Shown in pieces: positions 382 through 7,165 of a stretch of 7,165 bases of DNA. The position numbers and the translations under genes are program-made. Each line of letters starts with the position of its first letter. Positions within the stretch are counted from its first letter, which is position 1. Source of the DNA: Candidatus Mcinerneyibacteriota bacterium (lineage in GTDB: Bacteria > AUK180 > JAQVHJ01). The notes under the pieces were generated by a model. It ran no database searches. It saw only the letters and a list, made by a program, of their open reading frames with translations, and was not told the origin of the DNA. Location of the stretch: contig DAOVMD010000151.1 in NCBI GenBank assembly GCA_030630935.1, forward strand, positions 1 to 7,165. The letters run 5' to 3'.

Positions 382-1800
382 TTAGATTTGTTGGAGCTTC
401 GGTCCTTCAGGTGTATCTTTTATAATATATCCCTTATCTTTCAGGATATTCCGGATCTCATCTGCTCGTTTGAAGTCTTTATTTTTCCTCGCAGTTTGAC
501 GTTCTTGAACTAATCTCTCTAATTCTTCGTCAACCTGCACTGATTCTTCTTTAAAATCCTTAATATTAAATCCCAGGATCTCATCGAATTTATATAGTAA
601 AGAAAGTTTTTCTTTATTCTCAATTTGATTGGCTTTTAATAAATCATAGACTACCGCTAATGCTCTCGGCATATTTAAATCGTCATTAATTGCAGTTAAG
701 AATTCTTTATAATATTTCTGATCTTCATTAACCTCAATCGGGATCTCACCTTGAACTTCATTCTTTAGATTAATAATTCTGGACTTTAAAATTTCAAATG
801 ACTGCTTAGCGCCCAGTAGAGCTTCTTCTGTAAAGACAAGCTGTTTTCTATAGTGGGCCGTAAAACATAGATACCTGTAATGTAAAGGATCAAAACCTCT
901 ATCAATCAAAGTCCGGATTGTAATAAAATTACTTAACGACTTTGACATTTTTTCTTTTTCAAGTACGAGGAACTCCCCGTGTAACCAGAACTTTACCCAT
1001 GGATGTTTTCCAAAAGCAGATTCACTCTGAGCAATTTCATTAGTATGATGAACATTAATATGGTCGATCCCGCCTGAATGAATATCAAACTGTTCCCCGA
1101 GATATTTCGAAGCCATTGCAGAGCATTCAATATGCCACCCCGGCCAACCACGACCCCAAGGTGAATCCCACTTCATTAAGTGGTCTTTAAATTTCTCTGA
1201 TTCAGTAAACCAAAGAACAAAATCCCTTGGATTCTTTTTATTCTTATCAATATTAACTCTGGCCCCGGCTTTCTGATCATCTAATTTCAGCTTTCCAAGG
1301 TCCGAATAATGTTCAAATTTTGAAGTGTCAAAATAAACATTCCCACCTGTTTGATAAGTGAATCCATTCGCTTCAATCCTTTTGATCAGATCAATCATTT
1401 CTGTAATATGATCAGTTGCCTTACACCAAATATCAGGAAATAGAATATTCAAGCTATTCAAATCCTTCTTGAATTCATTTGTATAAAAATCTGTAATATC
1501 TTTTACTGTCTTGCCGAGTTTCTTTGCAGCTTTCTCAACCTTATCCTCACCTGTATCGGCATCACCGAGGTTTTCTCCGGTTAAATGCCCGACATCTGTA
1601 ATATTCATAACATGTTTCAAATCATAGCCATTGAAAAGCAGAACTCTTTTTAAAACATCCTCAAATATATAAGTTCGTAAATTCCCGATATGAGCATAGT
1701 TATAAACTGTTAGCCCGCAAGCATAAAACCTAACCTTATTACTTTCAATTGGCTTGAACTCTTCCTTTTTTCTGGTTAATGTATTAAATAATTTTAGCAT
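382..1800 (-). CDS. cysS: Cysteinyl-tRNA synthetase
   Basis: A 472-residue class I aminoacyl-tRNA synthetase, slightly longer than E. coli CysRS (461), which charges tRNA-Cys in the cytoplasm. Motifs are intact: HIGN at 37-40 and KMSKS at 284-288. The zinc ligands that select cysteine are Cys28, Cys226 (GWHIECS), His251 and Glu255 (HHTNE, same His-to-Glu spacing as E. coli). GARVNIDKNKKNPRDFVLW (179-197) is the usual connecting region. A helical anticodon-binding domain follows (about 320-472) with the typical ARKNKDFKRADEIRNILKDKGY and DTPEGPK ending. The ATG at 1798-1800 lies 3 bases past the gnnA stop with only a weak AAAAG before it, so translation is probably coupled to gnnA. It is the last gene visible in the operon. 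A palindrome-rich spacer begins right after its TAA. Confidence 0.97.
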   Translation of the reverse strand: MLKLFNTLTRKKEEFKPIESNKVRFYACGLTVYNYAHIGNLRTYIFEDVLKRVLLFNGYDLKHVMNITDVGHLTGENLGDADTGEDKVEKAAKKLGKTVKDITDFYTNEFKKDLNSLNILFPDIWCKATDHITEMIDLIKRIEANGFTYQTGGNVYFDTSKFEHYSDLGKLKLDDQKAGARVNIDKNKKNPRDFVLWFTESEKFKDHLMKWDSPWGRGWPGWHIECSAMASKYLGEQFDIHSGGIDHINVHHTNEIAQSESAFGKHPWVKFWLHGEFLVLEKEKMSKSLSNFITIRTLIDRGFDPLHYRYLCFTAHYRKQLVFTEEALLGAKQSFEILKSRIINLKNEVQGEIPIEVNEDQKYYKEFLTAINDDLNMPRALAVVYDLLKANQIENKEKLSLLYKFDEILGFNIKDFKEESVQVDEELERLVQERQTARKNKDFKRADEIRNILKDKGYIIKDTPEGPKLQQI

Positions 1801-1803
1801 CTT

Positions 1804-2754
1804 TTAATTTTGAATTTTATATTTACCGACTATCCTGGTTACTTTAATTGCAATTTCAAGTGCATCTCTTCCATCCTCTGCAGTTACCTTCGGCTTCGTT
1901 CGATTCTGAATTGAAGTAAGAAATGATTTTAACTCTATCTTCAAAGGTTCTTCAACTTTTAATTTGGGATTCTTAAATAAAATCTTGGGTTTATTCTTTG
2001 AAATTTTCTTTTGAAATATCTTTAATTCAGGGATTGTATAATCTAATGAGAAGTAAGTGTCTTCCTGAAAAACCCGAAGCTTGCGCATCTTTTTATCGCT
2101 TACTCTGCTCACGGTAATATTGGCAACACACCCCGATTTAAACCTTACACGTGCATTTGCAATATCCTCATGGTGAGTTAGGATTGGGATACCGGAAGCA
2201 TCAATCGTAGCAATTGGAGATTTTACCAGCTGAAATGCAATATCAATATCATGAATCATCAGATCCAAAACTACACCAACATCTTTGATTCGTGGAGAGA
2301 ATGGGGCAAGCCTATGTGATTCTATAAATAAAGGTTTCGTAATATGTTTCTCTAACTCTATCATACCCGGATTAAATCGTTCAATATGACCAACCTGGAC
2401 TATTAGATTTTTCTTGGCAGCAAGCTTTATTAAGAGATTGGCTTCTTTAACAGTTTGAGTAATAGGTTTTTCAATGAAAACATCCTTCCCTTTTTCAAGG
2501 CATTTCTTTGCAACTTCAAAATGGTTAACAGTTGGAACAACAATACTAATTGCATCGGAATCTTTAATTAACAAATCAAGATCGTCATAAGCTTTTATCT
2601 TAAAAATTTTTGCAACTTCATTAACCCTCTTTGAATCAACATCAAATATACCGGAAAATGAAATGCTCCTGAACCGTGATAAAATTCGAGCATGATGATA
2701 TCCAAGATGACCTACTCCAACAACCCCAACCCTTAGTTTTTTTGATTTAGTCAT
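1804..2754 (-). CDS. gnnA: Gfo/Idh/MocA-family oxidoreductase, probable GnnA (UDP-GlcNAc 3-dehydrogenase)
   Basis: A 316-residue NAD(P)-dependent sugar oxidoreductase. The N-terminal Rossmann domain has GVGHLG (Gly13, Gly15, Gly18) and the family's EKPIT motif with Lys96 at the active site. GHIERFNP (122-129) follows. The C-terminal alpha/beta domain contains RLAPFSPR (148-155) and DLMIHDIDI (164-172), with His168 as likely catalytic residue. In the GnnA/GnnB scheme it would oxidise the 3-hydroxyl of UDP-GlcNAc to a 3-keto sugar for GnnB. The motifs fix the family only; the reaction is inferred from the lpxA-gnnB-gnnA linkage. The start ATG (2752-2754) overlaps the gnnB stop and has AGGAG at 2761-2765 with a 6-base spacer. 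The stop lies 3 bases before cysS. WlbA-like UDP-GlcNAcA 3-dehydrogenase is an alternative, but no WbpA- or WbpD-like partner gene is present here. Confidence 0.8.
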   Translation of the reverse strand: MTKSKKLRVGVVGVGHLGYHHARILSRFRSISFSGIFDVDSKRVNEVAKIFKIKAYDDLDLLIKDSDAISIVVPTVNHFEVAKKCLEKGKDVFIEKPITQTVKEANLLIKLAAKKNLIVQVGHIERFNPGMIELEKHITKPLFIESHRLAPFSPRIKDVGVVLDLMIHDIDIAFQLVKSPIATIDASGIPILTHHEDIANARVRFKSGCVANITVSRVSDKKMRKLRVFQEDTYFSLDYTIPELKIFQKKISKNKPKILFKNPKLKVEEPLKIELKSFLTSIQNRTKPKVTAEDGRDALEIAIKVTRIVGKYKIQN

Positions 2755-3851
2755 TTAAATCTCCTAATTGTATTAATTACCTTTTCCAGATCCTTTCGTG
2801 TAAGACCGGGATGAACCGGTAAGGATACAACTTCTCTGGAGATTAAAACTGATTTCTCCAAACCCTTTGTGGAATAACCAAGTCTCTTATATAATGGTTG
2901 TTCAGGTATTGTTAAGGGATAAATCGTAGCAGCATCAATGCCATTACTAATTAGATAATTAACAAATTTCTTTCTAATTTTCTTGGGTACCCTAATTGTA
3001 TACTGATGAAAAACATGTTTTGTTCCGAGCTGTACTTTCGGAATTGTAATCCAATCAATCCCCGTTAAATTCCTGGATAGGTATTTTGCGTTCTTGATTC
3101 GGAGTTCTGTCATCTTTCGAATTTTCGTCATCTGTACCAGACCAATCCCGGCCTGGAGATTTGTGATTCTAAAATTATACCCAAGAATATCATGGTGAAA
3201 TCGACCAACCCGACCATGATTAATAATTTTTTTGGATAACTCAAAATATTTCTTATTATTTGTCGTTATCATCCCTCCTTCACCGGTTGTCATATTTTTT
3301 GTTGCATAAAATGAAAAGCACCCGGCAAGTCCAAAAGTCCCGATTACTTTACCGTTTACCTCTGCTCCGTGTGATTGGGCACAATCCTCAATTAATTTTA
3401 TCTTATATTTATTGCATAATTTCTTTACCCTCGGCATATCCATAGGGTTCCCGTATAAATGAACAACAATCAAAGCTGCAGGTTTTTTCATCCTGCTGCT
3501 TAACCTTTTCTCTAATAGGTCAATATCAAGATTAAATGAATTCTCATTGATATCTACGAATTCAGGTTTCGCTCCCACGAATAAAATACAATTCGCGGTT
3601 GCAATAAAACTGAATGGTGTAGTCAAGACGATGTCATCCTTTTTAATCCCGGCAGCAATAAGTGCTGCATGTAAAGCAGTGGTTCCGGAAGATGTTGCAA
3701 CAGAATACTTACAATTTAAATATTTTGAAAACTCTTCTTCGAACCTGGCAACATACTTACCGCTTGCAATAATCTTTGTATCAATAACCTCTTTTAAAAT
3801 CTTCTTTTCTTTATCATCTAACTGCGGCTCTGAAATACGAATCCGTTTCAT
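2751..3851 (-). CDS. gnnB: DegT/DnrJ/EryC1-family PLP aminotransferase, probable GnnB (UDP-GlcNAc-3-ulose transaminase)
   Basis: A 366-residue sugar aminotransferase of normal family length. Fold type I features appear in order: phosphate-binding SSGTTALH (54-61), EDCAQSHGA (155-163) with cofactor-contact Asp156 and Gln159, and SFYATKNMTTGEGGM (from Ser180) with the PLP-binding Lys185. GYNFR (224-228) and HQYTIR follow. By analogy with A. ferrooxidans GnnB, it would transfer an amino group from glutamate to the C3 keto group of oxidised UDP-GlcNAc, giving UDP-GlcNAc3N for LpxA. The family is certain from motifs; the substrate is inferred from position between lpxA and the oxidoreductase. Both ends overlap their neighbours by 4 bases (ATGA at 3848-3851 and 2751-2754). 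A GAGGGG-like Shine-Dalgarno (about 3861-3866) lies in the lpxA end. An alternative is a transaminase for an O-antigen 3-amino sugar. Confidence 0.8.
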   Translation of the reverse strand: MKRIRISEPQLDDKEKKILKEVIDTKIIASGKYVARFEEEFSKYLNCKYSVATSSGTTALHAALIAAGIKKDDIVLTTPFSFIATANCILFVGAKPEFVDINENSFNLDIDLLEKRLSSRMKKPAALIVVHLYGNPMDMPRVKKLCNKYKIKLIEDCAQSHGAEVNGKVIGTFGLAGCFSFYATKNMTTGEGGMITTNNKKYFELSKKIINHGRVGRFHHDILGYNFRITNLQAGIGLVQMTKIRKMTELRIKNAKYLSRNLTGIDWITIPKVQLGTKHVFHQYTIRVPKKIRKKFVNYLISNGIDAATIYPLTIPEQPLYKRLGYSTKGLEKSVLISREVVSLPVHPGLTRKDLEKVINTIRRFK

Positions 3852-4621
3852 TTTACTATTCCCCTCTCACTTTCTTTAATGAATTTTACGATATACTTTA
3901 ATTCTTCTGAATCATCAAAGTCTTTATCCAATTTCTCCATAGCTTGTTGAGTATTAAGATTTGAAAAATAAATTATTCGATAAATCTCTTTTACATTCTT
4001 AATAACTTCATTTGAAAAGCCATGACGCTTCAAGCCGATTAAATTTAAACCTCTTACTTTCGCAGGTTCCCCCTGAACCGTTCCATACGGGACCACATCC
4101 TTCCTAATTGCAGTTGCACCACCGACAATTGCAAAGTCTCCAAGTCTGCAGAATTGATGTACACCAACCAGTCCGCCAAGAATAACGTTATTATGTACCA
4201 CGACATGACCTGCTAATGTTGCAACATTTGCAAATATATTCCTGTCACCAACCTGGCAGTTATGTGCAACGTGTGCATACGCCATAAATAAATTATTATT
4301 CCCAATTAATGTACTGGTTTCTGATTCAGTTGAACGGTTAATAGTAACAAATTCCCTGAATGTATTATTATCTCCTATTTTAGTATAACTTTTACATTGA
4401 TCATATTTTAAATCCTGCGGAATTGTTCCGATTGATGAGTAAGGAAAAAACACATTATCTGCACCTATCTCGGTCCAACCATCAACAAAGATATTAGCCA
4501 TTAACTTTGTTCTATCACCTATCTTTACATCATCCCCTAAAATCACATAAGGACCGATTTCTACATCTTCACCAAACTGTGCTTTATTAGTTATTGCTGT
4601 CGGATGTATTATAACTGACAT
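3848..4621 (-). CDS. lpxA: LpxA, UDP-GlcNAc (or UDP-GlcNAc3N) 3-acyltransferase
   Basis: A 257-residue protein, close to the E. coli 262. LpxA starts lipid A synthesis by moving a 3-hydroxyacyl chain from ACP to position 3 of the UDP-sugar. Hexapeptide repeats of a left-handed beta helix span about residues 3-185, and a helical C-terminal domain begins at GLKRHGFS (196-203). PQDLKY includes Gln69 and Asp70 (E. coli Gln73/Asp74). AHVAHNC holds His117 and catalytic His120; TLAGHV holds His139; HQFC starts at His155. The acyl-length 'ruler' position (E. coli Gly173) is Gly168. Two E. coli active-site residues differ: His99 is Asn95 and Glu200 is Ile195. With gnnB and gnnA fused to it by overlap, the likely substrate is the 3-amino sugar, giving an amide, but I cannot prove that from sequence. 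The start ATG (4619-4621) has AGGA at 4630-4633. Confidence 0.95.
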   Translation of the reverse strand: MSVIIHPTAITNKAQFGEDVEIGPYVILGDDVKIGDRTKLMANIFVDGWTEIGADNVFFPYSSIGTIPQDLKYDQCKSYTKIGDNNTFREFVTINRSTESETSTLIGNNNLFMAYAHVAHNCQVGDRNIFANVATLAGHVVVHNNVILGGLVGVHQFCRLGDFAIVGGATAIRKDVVPYGTVQGEPAKVRGLNLIGLKRHGFSNEVIKNVKEIYRIIYFSNLNTQQAMEKLDKDFDDSEELKYIVKFIKESERGIVK

Positions 4622-4642: not shown

Positions 4643-5089
4643 TTATTTATCTACTAAAACCGCCATCATCTCAGCTTGAGTAACAAGTTTATCACCAACA
4701 TAAGTCTTTCCGGAAATTTTACATGATGGTATCTTAGCATCGGCTCTTAAGTTTACAATCGAAACTTCATACCTCAGGACATCTCCCGGTACAACGGGTT
4801 TTCGGAATTTTACCTTATCAATTGACCCAAAATAAACTACCTTATCCTTTGGAACTCCAACCACTTCTAAAAGTAAAATTGCCCCTGCTTGAGCCATACC
4901 TTCTACAACCAACACCCCTGGCATTATAGGGTGTCCCGGAAAATGGCCCTGGAAAAATTGTTCATTGAAAGTGACATTTTTAATTGCAATAATTTTTTCA
5001 TTCTTCTCAATCTTTAGAACTCTGTCAACCATTAGAAATGGATACCTATGCGGTAGAATCTCTAAGATTTGAATAACATCTAATTCCAT
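4643..5089 (-). CDS. fabZ: FabZ, 3-hydroxyacyl-ACP dehydratase
   Basis: I choose the ATG at 5087-5089, giving 148 residues ([18 protein letters not shown]). A longer frame from a TTG at 5111-5113 exists, but AAGGAGGAG (5097-5105) sits just before the ATG and would lie inside that longer frame. FabZ dehydrates 3-hydroxyacyl-ACP in fatty-acid elongation and so competes with LpxA and LpxD for the same substrate. Visible hot-dog-fold signatures are [13 protein letters not shown] near the N-terminus, [11 protein letters not shown] with catalytic His49, and VVEGMAQAG with catalytic Glu63, 14 residues on as in E. coli. The gene starts 4 bases after the lpxD stop and ends 21 bases before lpxA. It is free-standing, with no LpxC domain attached, unlike the LpxC-FabZ fusion common in Bacteroidota and Chlorobiota. 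FabZ is preferred over FabA from length, motif and neighbours. Confidence 0.95.
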
Positions 5090-5093
5090 TACC

Positions 5094-6128
5094 TTACTCC
5101 TCCTTATTTTCAATATTTGAAACTCTTTCCTCTAATTGTTTTACTCTATCTAAAATCTTTGGTAACCCTCTTAGAGTTGCTTTAACTCTTAACTCTTCCG
5201 AAAGTTTTCTGGCAGGAAAACCCGATACAGTTAAACCTTCCGGAATACTTTTCATAACCCCGGATTTCGCACCAACTTTTACATTATTCCCAATCTCAAT
5301 ATGACCGGATACTCCGGCTTTTGCCGCAAGAATAACGTTCTGACCCAACTTCGAACTGCCGGCGATACCAACTTGAGCAACAAGTAATGAGTTCTCGCCT
5401 ACTTCTACATTGTGAGCGATTTGAACTAAGTTATCAATTTTTACACCCTTCTTAATCTTTGTCGATCCAAAAGTTGCCCTGTCAATTGTGACATTTGCTC
5501 CAATCTCTACATCATCCTCAATTATTACTTTTCCAATCTGCGGGATCTTGGAATTTATACCTTCAACTGTTGCAAATCCAAAACCATCACTGCCAATTAC
5601 TGTACCTGAATGAATAATTACTCTGTCACCAATTTCTATAAAATCATAGATCGAAACATTCTGATAAATGATACAATCTCCTCCAACTATTGAATTATCT
5701 CCAATATGTACTCCGGGATATATCACGGAACCTGGACCAATCTCCACGTTCAAACCAATATAAACCAATGGTGCAATTCTAATGTCCTTCCCTAATTTAA
5801 CTCCTTCTGAGATGTATGCATTTTCACTAACCCCGGAAAATGAAACTTTTCGTTCATTAAATAATGCTAATAAAATCCCAACTGCTTTATAAGGTTCATC
5901 AACAAAAATCAAGTTCTTACCTGACACCTCAGAGGCTCCATTCTTAAGAATAAAAGCTGTTGCATTTGATGATTCTAAATATTTCTCATACTTTGGATTT
6001 GTAATGAAACTAATTGAGCCTGGTTCGGCTTCGCGGATATCAGATAATCCATCAACTTCAATGTCAGGGTCTCCCTTTAATTCACCGGAGAGAATTTTAG
6101 TAATTTTGCTTAACTTAAAAGACTTCAT
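5094..6128 (-). CDS. lpxD: LpxD, UDP-3-(3-hydroxyacyl)glucosamine N-acyltransferase
   Basis: A 344-residue cytoplasmic acyltransferase, normal family length. LpxD adds the second 3-hydroxyacyl chain from acyl carrier protein to the 2-amino group of the UDP-sugar, the third step of lipid A synthesis. The N-terminal uridine-binding domain (about residues 1-95) carries [11 protein letters not shown] at 37-47; Phe41, Asn44 and Tyr47 match the uridine-contact residues of known LpxD proteins. Residues about 100-300 are hexapeptide repeats of a left-handed beta helix. GSDGFGF lies at 179-185, and QIAHN contains the expected catalytic base, His239. A charged C-terminal helix (about 310-344) follows. 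The ATG at 6126-6128 gives an N-terminus that lines up with E. coli LpxD. No Shine-Dalgarno sequence is visible in the 34 bases after the skp stop. The last codons (Lys-Glu-Glu) double as the fabZ ribosome-binding site. Confidence 0.96.
5097..5105 (-). promoter_or_regulatory. Shine-Dalgarno of fabZ, embedded in the lpxD 3' end
   Basis: The minus strand reads AAGGAGGAG, a near-perfect anti-16S match, 7 bases before the fabZ ATG at 5089. The same bases encode the last Lys-Glu-Glu of LpxD. It decides the fabZ start, and suggests that fabZ translation is tied to ribosomes finishing lpxD. Confidence 0.85.
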
Positions 6129-6162: not shown

Positions 6163-6675
6163 CTATCTGTATAAGCGGTCTTGGACTTTCTTTGTAATAT
6201 CAAGACTTTTATCATAATATAGAGTAGCTTGCTTCTTTAAAACAATAGTATATTTCTCATTCTTTGCAATATCCTCAACTATAAATAAAACTTTCTGCTC
6301 CAACTTCTCAAATAACTGCTTTTCCTGCTCTGAAAGTTCCTGCTGATACTGATTAAATAATGATTGTAATTTCTTGAATTCTGTTTCAAGTTCTTTACGT
6401 AGTTCTTCCTTCTTTGCTTCATCCATTACTGCAAGCTGCTTCTTAAGATTTGCTTCTTTTGCTGCTAATGCCTTCATACGGGTGTCAAGGTCAGTCTGCT
6501 TCTCAATAAATTCTGTTTTTAACTTTTCAAGTCCATCTTTAAACTCTTGATAGTTCTCTACTACTTCATTAACATCAACCACTGCAACTTTAATTGAACC
6601 TGCAAAAGCTGAACTTACAGAAAATAGTGAAATAAAGAAAATTACACCAACGAGAATATTCAAATTCTTTCTCAT
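6163..6675 (-). CDS. skp: Skp/OmpH-family periplasmic chaperone
   Basis: A 170-residue protein, the usual length for the family. Residues 1-25 form a signal peptide: basic MRKN, a hydrophobic core (residues 5-18), and an AFA|G cleavage site after Ala25. The mature protein opens with IKVAVVDVNEVV, the strand-like start typical of OmpH proteins. A long charged, Lys/Glu/Gln-rich coiled coil follows (about residues 45-130), then a short C-terminal segment (about 140-170, KYTIVLKKQATLYYDKSLDIT) that returns to the body domain. Skp trimers hold unfolded outer-membrane proteins in the periplasm and pass them to BamA, which matches its place directly after bamA. The start is the ATG at 6673-6675, supported by GGAGG at 6682-6686 with a 6-base spacer. 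The stop is TAG. The family assignment is firm; that it chaperones barrels in this organism is inferred from family and context. Confidence 0.92.
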   Translation of the reverse strand: MRKNLNILVGVIFFISLFSVSSAFAGSIKVAVVDVNEVVENYQEFKDGLEKLKTEFIEKQTDLDTRMKALAAKEANLKKQLAVMDEAKKEELRKELETEFKKLQSLFNQYQQELSEQEKQLFEKLEQKVLFIVEDIAKNEKYTIVLKKQATLYYDKSLDITKKVQDRLYR

Positions 6676-6689
6676 TTTAAACCTCCAAA

Positions 6690-7165
6690 TTAAAATTCTG
6701 TTCCTATTCTAAAATGCAATCGCCCGGTATCCCAGGTTTTGCCTTCTTCTGATTTTGTCGGATGATTAAGTCCCCAAGCATAATCAATATGTAAAACTCC
6801 GAAGAATGGGACATCAATCATAAAACCGAGACCATAACTTGTATAAAGATCAAAACTATGAATTGACAATGGTTCAACATAAACTTCATCAAGTTTCCCG
6901 TCATTATCAATATCAAAATATATCTTTGACCAGGTATTCCCTGCATCAAAGAAAACCGCACCCCATAACCTATCATAAACAGGGAATTTATATTCGAGTG
7001 TAATGTTTAACATCCTATCCCCACCTATTGGATAAGTGGTAACACCATAAACAATAGTCCCATCCTCGATTAATTCCTGACCGGTAGCGGGGTCAATTAC
7101 AAGACCGGAAATCGGGTCAACCCATTCGCCGGTATAAGGATTAATGATAAAGTTCCTGGTGAAAA
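6690..7165 (-). CDS. bamA: BamA (Omp85 family) outer-membrane assembly protein, C-terminal part, 5' end outside window
   Basis: About 157 residues are visible. The reading frame stays open from the TAA at 6690-6692 to the right edge, so the Met codon at 7011-7013 is internal and the gene begins outside the window. BamA is the barrel that folds and inserts outer-membrane proteins; only the last barrel strands are seen here, and the periplasmic POTRA domains are not. Family signs are PIGGDRM followed by an LEYKFPV strand, then FFDAGNTW, a YGLGF strand, an IDYAWGL strand, and a last strand FRIGTEF ending in the terminal Phe usual for outer-membrane barrels. Two loops are odd: three tandem octapeptides (7071-7142) just before PIGGDRM, and a DIDNDGKLD stretch (6888-6914) after FFDAGNTW. 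The stop lies 14 bases before the skp start. The skp/lpxD neighbours favour BamA over TamA or another Omp85 protein, though the POTRA region would be needed for certainty. Confidence 0.88.
   Translation of the reverse strand, partial: FTRNFIINPYTGEWVDPISGLVIDPATGQELIEDGTIVYGVTTYPIGGDRMLNITLEYKFPVYDRLWGAVFFDAGNTWSKIYFDIDNDGKLDEVYVEPLSIHSFDLYTSYGLGFMIDVPFFGVLHIDYAWGLNHPTKSEEGKTWDTGRLHFRIGTEF

Follow-up and report, generated by a model that had tools for sequence, protein, structure and literature searches.

A GnnA dehydrogenase and a DegT aminotransferase that is not a GnnB orthologue follow lpxA in Candidatus Mcinerneyibacteriota and may supply 2,3-diaminoglucose for lipid A

In a genome of Candidatus Mcinerneyibacteriota (GCA_030630935.1), the lpxA gene is followed by genes encoding a DegT-family aminotransferase and a Gfo/Idh/MocA dehydrogenase, which raises the question of whether these two enzymes make UDP-GlcNAc3N for lipid A, as GnnB and GnnA do. 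The window, i.e. the whole stretch of 7,165 nucleotides analysed, carries eight genes on its minus strand, in the order BamA(C-term)–Skp–LpxD–FabZ–LpxA–DegT–Gfo–CysS. The C-terminal part of bamA (6690..7163) runs off the window; then come skp/ompH, encoding a chaperone (6163..6675), lpxD, encoding the N-acyltransferase of the lipid A pathway (5094..6128), and fabZ (4643..5113), whose listed start is TTG and which overlaps the end of lpxD. They precede lpxA (3848..4621), which codes for a hexapeptide-repeat acyltransferase of 257 residues (PRK05289/TIGR01852), the gene of the DegT/DnrJ/EryC1/StrS aminotransferase (2751..3851; 366 residues, PF01041), which we propose for the GnnB step although it is not a GnnB orthologue, gnnA (1804..2754), encoding a predicted UDP-GlcNAc 3-dehydrogenase of the Gfo/Idh/MocA family (316 residues, PF01408), and cysS (382..1800), which lies 3 bases downstream of gnnA. 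The preliminary description had the DegT and Gfo genes directly following lpxA, each with a 4-base ATGA overlap, and this is exact in the open reading frame coordinates: lpxA and DegT share 3848..3851, and DegT and gnnA share 2751..2754, both on the minus strand and both reading TCAT on the plus strand, so that on the coding strand, with the next base included, each is an ATGA junction.

The arrangement does not result from chance, because a related genome of the same family (G001) keeps the same eight-gene order, with 73%, 64% and 73% identity to the window for GnnA, DegT and LpxA, respectively. The gnnA–cysS neighbourhood is conserved in several genomes of the same class. Downstream of cysS, the window contains two inverted repeats, one at 207–242 (18-nt arms, no loop, 83% complementary) and one at 76–101 (12-nt arms, 92% complementary), which are possibly repeat elements or terminators. 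The source genome (3.16 Mb) is assembled in 471 contigs and is 80% complete; claims of absence are therefore weak for it. The link with the lipid A pathway put forward earlier holds: the two genes belong to an operon overlapping lpxA, and a search for LpxC, LpxB, LpxK and WaaA, the four enzymes covered, found all of them encoded elsewhere in the genome. The lack of lpxC between lpxD and fabZ was considered as a sign of pathway loss, an idea rejected since lpxC lies on another contig (C329). FabZ scores 199 bits against the FabZ part of the LpxC–FabZ fusion model, versus 181 bits against stand-alone FabZ, and the window fabZ and the separate lpxC are possibly a split fusion.

The dehydrogenase matches PF01408 with 103 bits. 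Its best NCBIfam model is that of UDP-GlcNAc 3-dehydrogenase (252 bits, below the 450-bit equivalog cut-off), and among solved structures it matches 7bvj best (E = 5.5e-53, 183 bits), the next chain scoring 73 bits. We take 7bvj to be the Acidithiobacillus ferrooxidans GnnA of Manissorn et al. 2020. When genomes were searched with the 7bvj sequence, the top three matches lay in loci of order lpxA–gnnA–gnnB, followed by lpxB in the highest-scoring locus. Since this is presumably the gene order of Acidithiobacillus (lpxA–gnnA–gnnB, then lpxB), the loci of the top matches support the identification of 7bvj. The study of Manissorn et al. is cited in PMC9132286.

In the phylogenetic tree, the window GnnA forms one group with those of G001 and of genomes of the same class (support 95/88), which is nested in a clade containing 7bvj and every lpxA-linked Gfo (97/98). 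The Gfos that we call WlbA-like, a label that denotes pairing with WlbC-like DegTs rather than likeness to characterised reference sequences, make up a separate and distant clade (branch 4.93, support 100/99). A grouping with O-antigen sugar pathways, raised in the preliminary description as an outcome that would speak against it, is thus not seen for GnnA. Lys96 of the EKP motif and His168 are present, and no second Gfo homologue was detected in the 80% complete assembly at E ≤ 0.001. By similarity and phylogeny, the window Gfo is a genuine GnnA, i.e. a predicted dehydrogenase orthologous to GnnA, as had been claimed for it.

The aminotransferase tells a different story. It matches PF01041 with 366 bits and has a lysine, Lys185, at the position of the PLP lysine. 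The NCBIfam models that it matches best, those of PseC (a C4 transaminase), which ranks first, and LegC, all score below cut-off; this naming is uninformative, for the PseC model also comes top for the canonical GnnB of an Acidithiobacillus-like locus (L191) and for a haloarchaeal DegT. In the tree, 22 canonical gnnA-linked GnnBs, the Acidithiobacillus-like one included, form one clade (100/97), and a branch with 100/99 support separates the window DegT from it. Forcing the window DegT into the clade of gnnA-linked DegTs lowered the log-likelihood by 101 (AU p = 8e-8); as the forced set comprised 13 canonical GnnBs and the G001 DegT, the window's own sister, the test effectively asks whether a placement of the window–G001 pair among the canonical GnnBs is tenable. 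The window DegT is no orthologue of GnnB, and the earlier assignment has to be abandoned. The three other DegTs of the source genome fall in a different group of the tree, and both the window DegT and GnnA lie outside the WlbC-like and WlbA-like clades of same-class genomes. Altogether, the phylogeny of the two enzymes bears out the proposed module for GnnA, which sits in the lpxA-linked clade, but not for DegT, which sits with haloarchaeal DegTs linked to Gfos.

Indeed, the nearest relatives of this DegT outside its own family are haloarchaeal DegTs, together with the DegT of a distant genome (G021). The haloarchaeal genes were the best matches in a plasmid collection (44–45% identity for Haloferax), and a tree including them unites six haloarchaeal DegTs with those of the window, G001 and G021 in one clade (support 100/98). 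In all six haloarchaeal clusters read, DegT is directly followed by a Gfo gene and a nucleotide sugar dehydrogenase gene lies nearby; an acetyl- or acyltransferase is present in four, directly upstream of DegT in three of them. The three haloarchaeal Gfos scanned have UDP-GlcNAc 3-dehydrogenase as their best NCBIfam model, below cut-off, like the window GnnA. These clusters look like routes to diacetamido-uronic acids, and a sugar of this kind is established in archaea, since the glycans of Methanococcus contain GlcNAc3NAcA (PMC2952790). Joint acquisition of DegT and Gfo from haloarchaea is nevertheless disfavoured: with the haloarchaeal Gfos added to the tree, the window GnnA stays in the bacterial lineage, and a tree forced to unite the window and G001 GnnAs with the haloarchaeal Gfos fares worse (AU p = 0.008). 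In G021 (contig C98; L232:7220-8359 + 6365-7162), a DegT of the same clade lies between fabZ and lpxA and no GnnA-family Gfo was found in that genome (best score 75 bits). This fabZ–DegT–lpxA order suggests either that the transaminase of this clade became linked to lpxA repeatedly or that distant lineages shared it.

What the window DegT has in common with GnnBs is a short motif. Its residues 282–284 are HQY. All 43 entries taken from gnnA-linked loci have HQ[YF], a count in which overlapping loci of the same genes are entered separately so that independent genes are fewer, and so do the six haloarchaeal DegTs. Most WlbC-like enzymes and the G021 DegT have NQY at this position, and neither form is present in the paralogues of the source genome, or in the solved structures examined (QdtB, perosamine synthase, 7b0d and 7n63). 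The association was spotted after viewing the alignment and is a lead rather than the outcome of a pre-planned test. Because the window DegT keeps HQ[YF], as do all the gnnA-linked aminotransferases examined, it likely catalyses the same reaction as GnnB while being non-orthologous to it.

We therefore consider it highly probable that GnnA and this non-orthologous DegT, acting at the transamination step, supply UDP-GlcNAc3N for lipid A. GnnA would oxidise C3 of UDP-GlcNAc to give the 3-keto sugar, which the adjacent DegT would transaminate to UDP-GlcNAc3N; LpxA would then place a 3-hydroxyacyl chain on the new 3-amine, and the product would enter the ordinary pathway (LpxC, LpxD, LpxB, LpxK, WaaA). 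We infer this chemistry, including the use of the amine by LpxA, and with it the presence of GlcN3N in at least part of the lipid A. With somewhat less confidence, we regard the route as a likely mosaic, in which a DegT of the haloarchaeal-cluster lineage took over the transaminase step and was paired with a bacterial GnnA and LpxA.

Two other readings concern what the pair makes. The product of DegT and Gfo could be a 3-amino or 3-acetamido sugar destined for a polysaccharide of the cell surface, such as O-antigen or another glycan, their adjacency to lpxA reflecting operon packing. In favour of this, the closest outside relatives of DegT belong to haloarchaeal clusters that encode a UDP-sugar dehydrogenase and, in many cases, an acetyl- or acyltransferase and a 2-epimerase, but genes for a UDP-sugar 6-dehydrogenase, an N-acetyltransferase or a 2-epimerase are all absent from the window (the extent of this search), GnnA belongs to the lpxA-linked bacterial clade and resists being joined with the haloarchaeal Gfos, and the WlbA/WlbC-like pairs of same-class genomes are separate genes in separate clades; we judge this reading very unlikely. 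Equally improbable in our view is that this DegT has nothing to do with the gnnA step and aminates another nucleotide sugar at C4, with the true GnnB encoded elsewhere in the genome. It is true that the C4 transaminase model scores highest, that perosamine synthase and the window DegT both lie outside the half of the tree holding canonical GnnB and QdtB, and that same-class genomes use gnnA without an adjacent DegT. However, PseC also tops the canonical GnnB of L191, which makes the match uninformative, both HQY and the regular association of the clade with 3-dehydrogenase-like Gfos in haloarchaea speak against such a role, and none of the three other DegTs of the genome has the motif, all of them lying in another group.

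If LpxA receives UDP-GlcNAc3N, the next question is whether all primary chains are amide-linked, as the preliminary description proposed. LpxA matches PRK05289/TIGR01852 well above cut-off and keeps the catalytic-type histidine (His120, the position of E. coli H125), and residue 121 is Asn where E. coli has Asp126. All same-class genomes sampled share Asn121, as do several other lineages, whether GnnA is present or not. As an indicator of GlcN3N use it was discarded: a GnnA-negative genome (G006) also has it, and the LpxAs of Acidithiobacillus-like bacteria, Geobacteraceae and Leptospira have Asp there. Nor could sugar selectivity be read from residues more generally, since no column of an alignment of LpxAs from 46 GnnA-positive and 37 GnnA-negative genomes separates the two groups beyond shuffled labels (best column JS 0.34, shuffle mean of maxima 0.34); of the E. 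coli row used for numbering, one of the 83 rows, the key residues were checked against the known numbering. In the structure of Leptospira LpxA, selectivity is reportedly achieved via a backbone carbonyl and not a side chain, which would fit this null result.

Published lipid A structures go both ways. In Leptospira, lipid A has a diaminoglucose backbone with all primary chains amide-linked (PMC10248169), whereas Capnocytophaga canimorsus, an organism with GnnA and GnnB, has a hybrid GlcN3N–GlcN backbone and two LpxA copies (PMC3342949). All-amide primary chains are thus a possible outcome rather than an established one: no LpxA residue separates the groups, and hybrid lipid A exists. A mixed lipid A, in which UDP-GlcNAc3N is made but a single LpxA takes both sugars so that amide- and ester-linked primary chains coexist, is a variant of our preferred reading rather than an exclusive alternative. 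The Capnocytophaga precedent, the lack of any LpxA residue tracking GnnA presence and the single LpxA found in the source genome are consistent with it; the tight coupling of lpxA, DegT and gnnA suggests a matched supply instead, the primary chains on the diaminoglucose backbone of Leptospira are all amide-linked, and the documented hybrid comes with two LpxA copies. On balance, a mixed lipid A is possible but rather doubtful.

That GnnA supplies lipid A precursors in this lineage would be unsurprising, for GnnA is widespread: among the genomes sampled from one class (that of a Methylococcaceae genome), 127 of 369 encode it, and many other lineages have it too. In GnnA-positive genomes, the gene often adjoins lpxA. 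Across most genomes its scores are bimodal (above ~185 or below ~110 bits), with few intermediates (132–169 bits). The gnnA–lpxA adjacency recurs in several lineages, as in L191, where the order is skp–lpxD–fabZ–lpxA–gnnA–gnnB–lpxB; on a plasmid of Legionella adelaidensis, a GnnA-family gene overlaps lpxB (L242:3899-5999). Four same-class genomes (G002–G005) have gnnA without an adjacent DegT. Among loci L197–L200 (of G005, G006, G002 and G004, respectively), gnnA directly follows lpxA in G002 and G004, with no DegT between; in G005, gnnA and cysS are neighbours on the opposite strand, close to lpxA; and G006 has lpxA–cysS and no GnnA at all. Given G002–G005 on the one hand and, on the other, G021, whose DegT occurs without a GnnA-family Gfo, the gnnA/DegT pair is not strictly inseparable.

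The preferred reading, in which DegT and GnnA feed LpxA, would add one more little-known lineage to those with GlcN3N-type lipid A. The transaminase of this lineage would escape an orthology-based search for gnnB, and HQ[YF] in combination with GnnA presence may mark this enzyme better. The preferred reading would also link a step in building bacterial endotoxin with enzymes of haloarchaeal clusters of the surface-glycan type, as a case of non-orthologous replacement.

Compared with known systems, the window resembles the A. ferrooxidans module, in which lpxA likewise has as neighbours the genes of a same-clade GnnA and of a DegT aminotransferase, with the same inferred reactions; the skp–lpxD–fabZ–lpxA order is also of the Acidithiobacillus type, as seen in L191. 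It departs from that module in having DegT–gnnA instead of gnnA–gnnB, in a DegT outside the GnnB clade (AU p = 8e-8) and in cysS, not lpxB, coming next. With the haloarchaeal clusters, such as those on Haloferax gibbonsii and H. mediterranei plasmids, it shares a same-clade DegT (39–45% identity) and the DegT–Gfo order, and in H. gibbonsii and Halobaculum magnesiiphilum the acetyl/acyltransferase gene lying upstream is joined by 4-base overlaps akin to that of the window, where lpxA takes the place of this gene; unlike these clusters, the window has no UDP-sugar dehydrogenase or epimerase gene, and its Gfo is of the bacterial lpxA-linked lineage. The WbpB/WbpE and WlbA/WlbC O-antigen routes also use a Gfo and a DegT to make a 3-amino UDP-sugar, but both window enzymes lie outside the WlbA-like and WlbC-like clades. 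Finally, the LpxA of Leptospira (3hsq) ranks second among the solved relatives of the window LpxA (227 bits) and differs from it in length by one residue after the PQDL motif.
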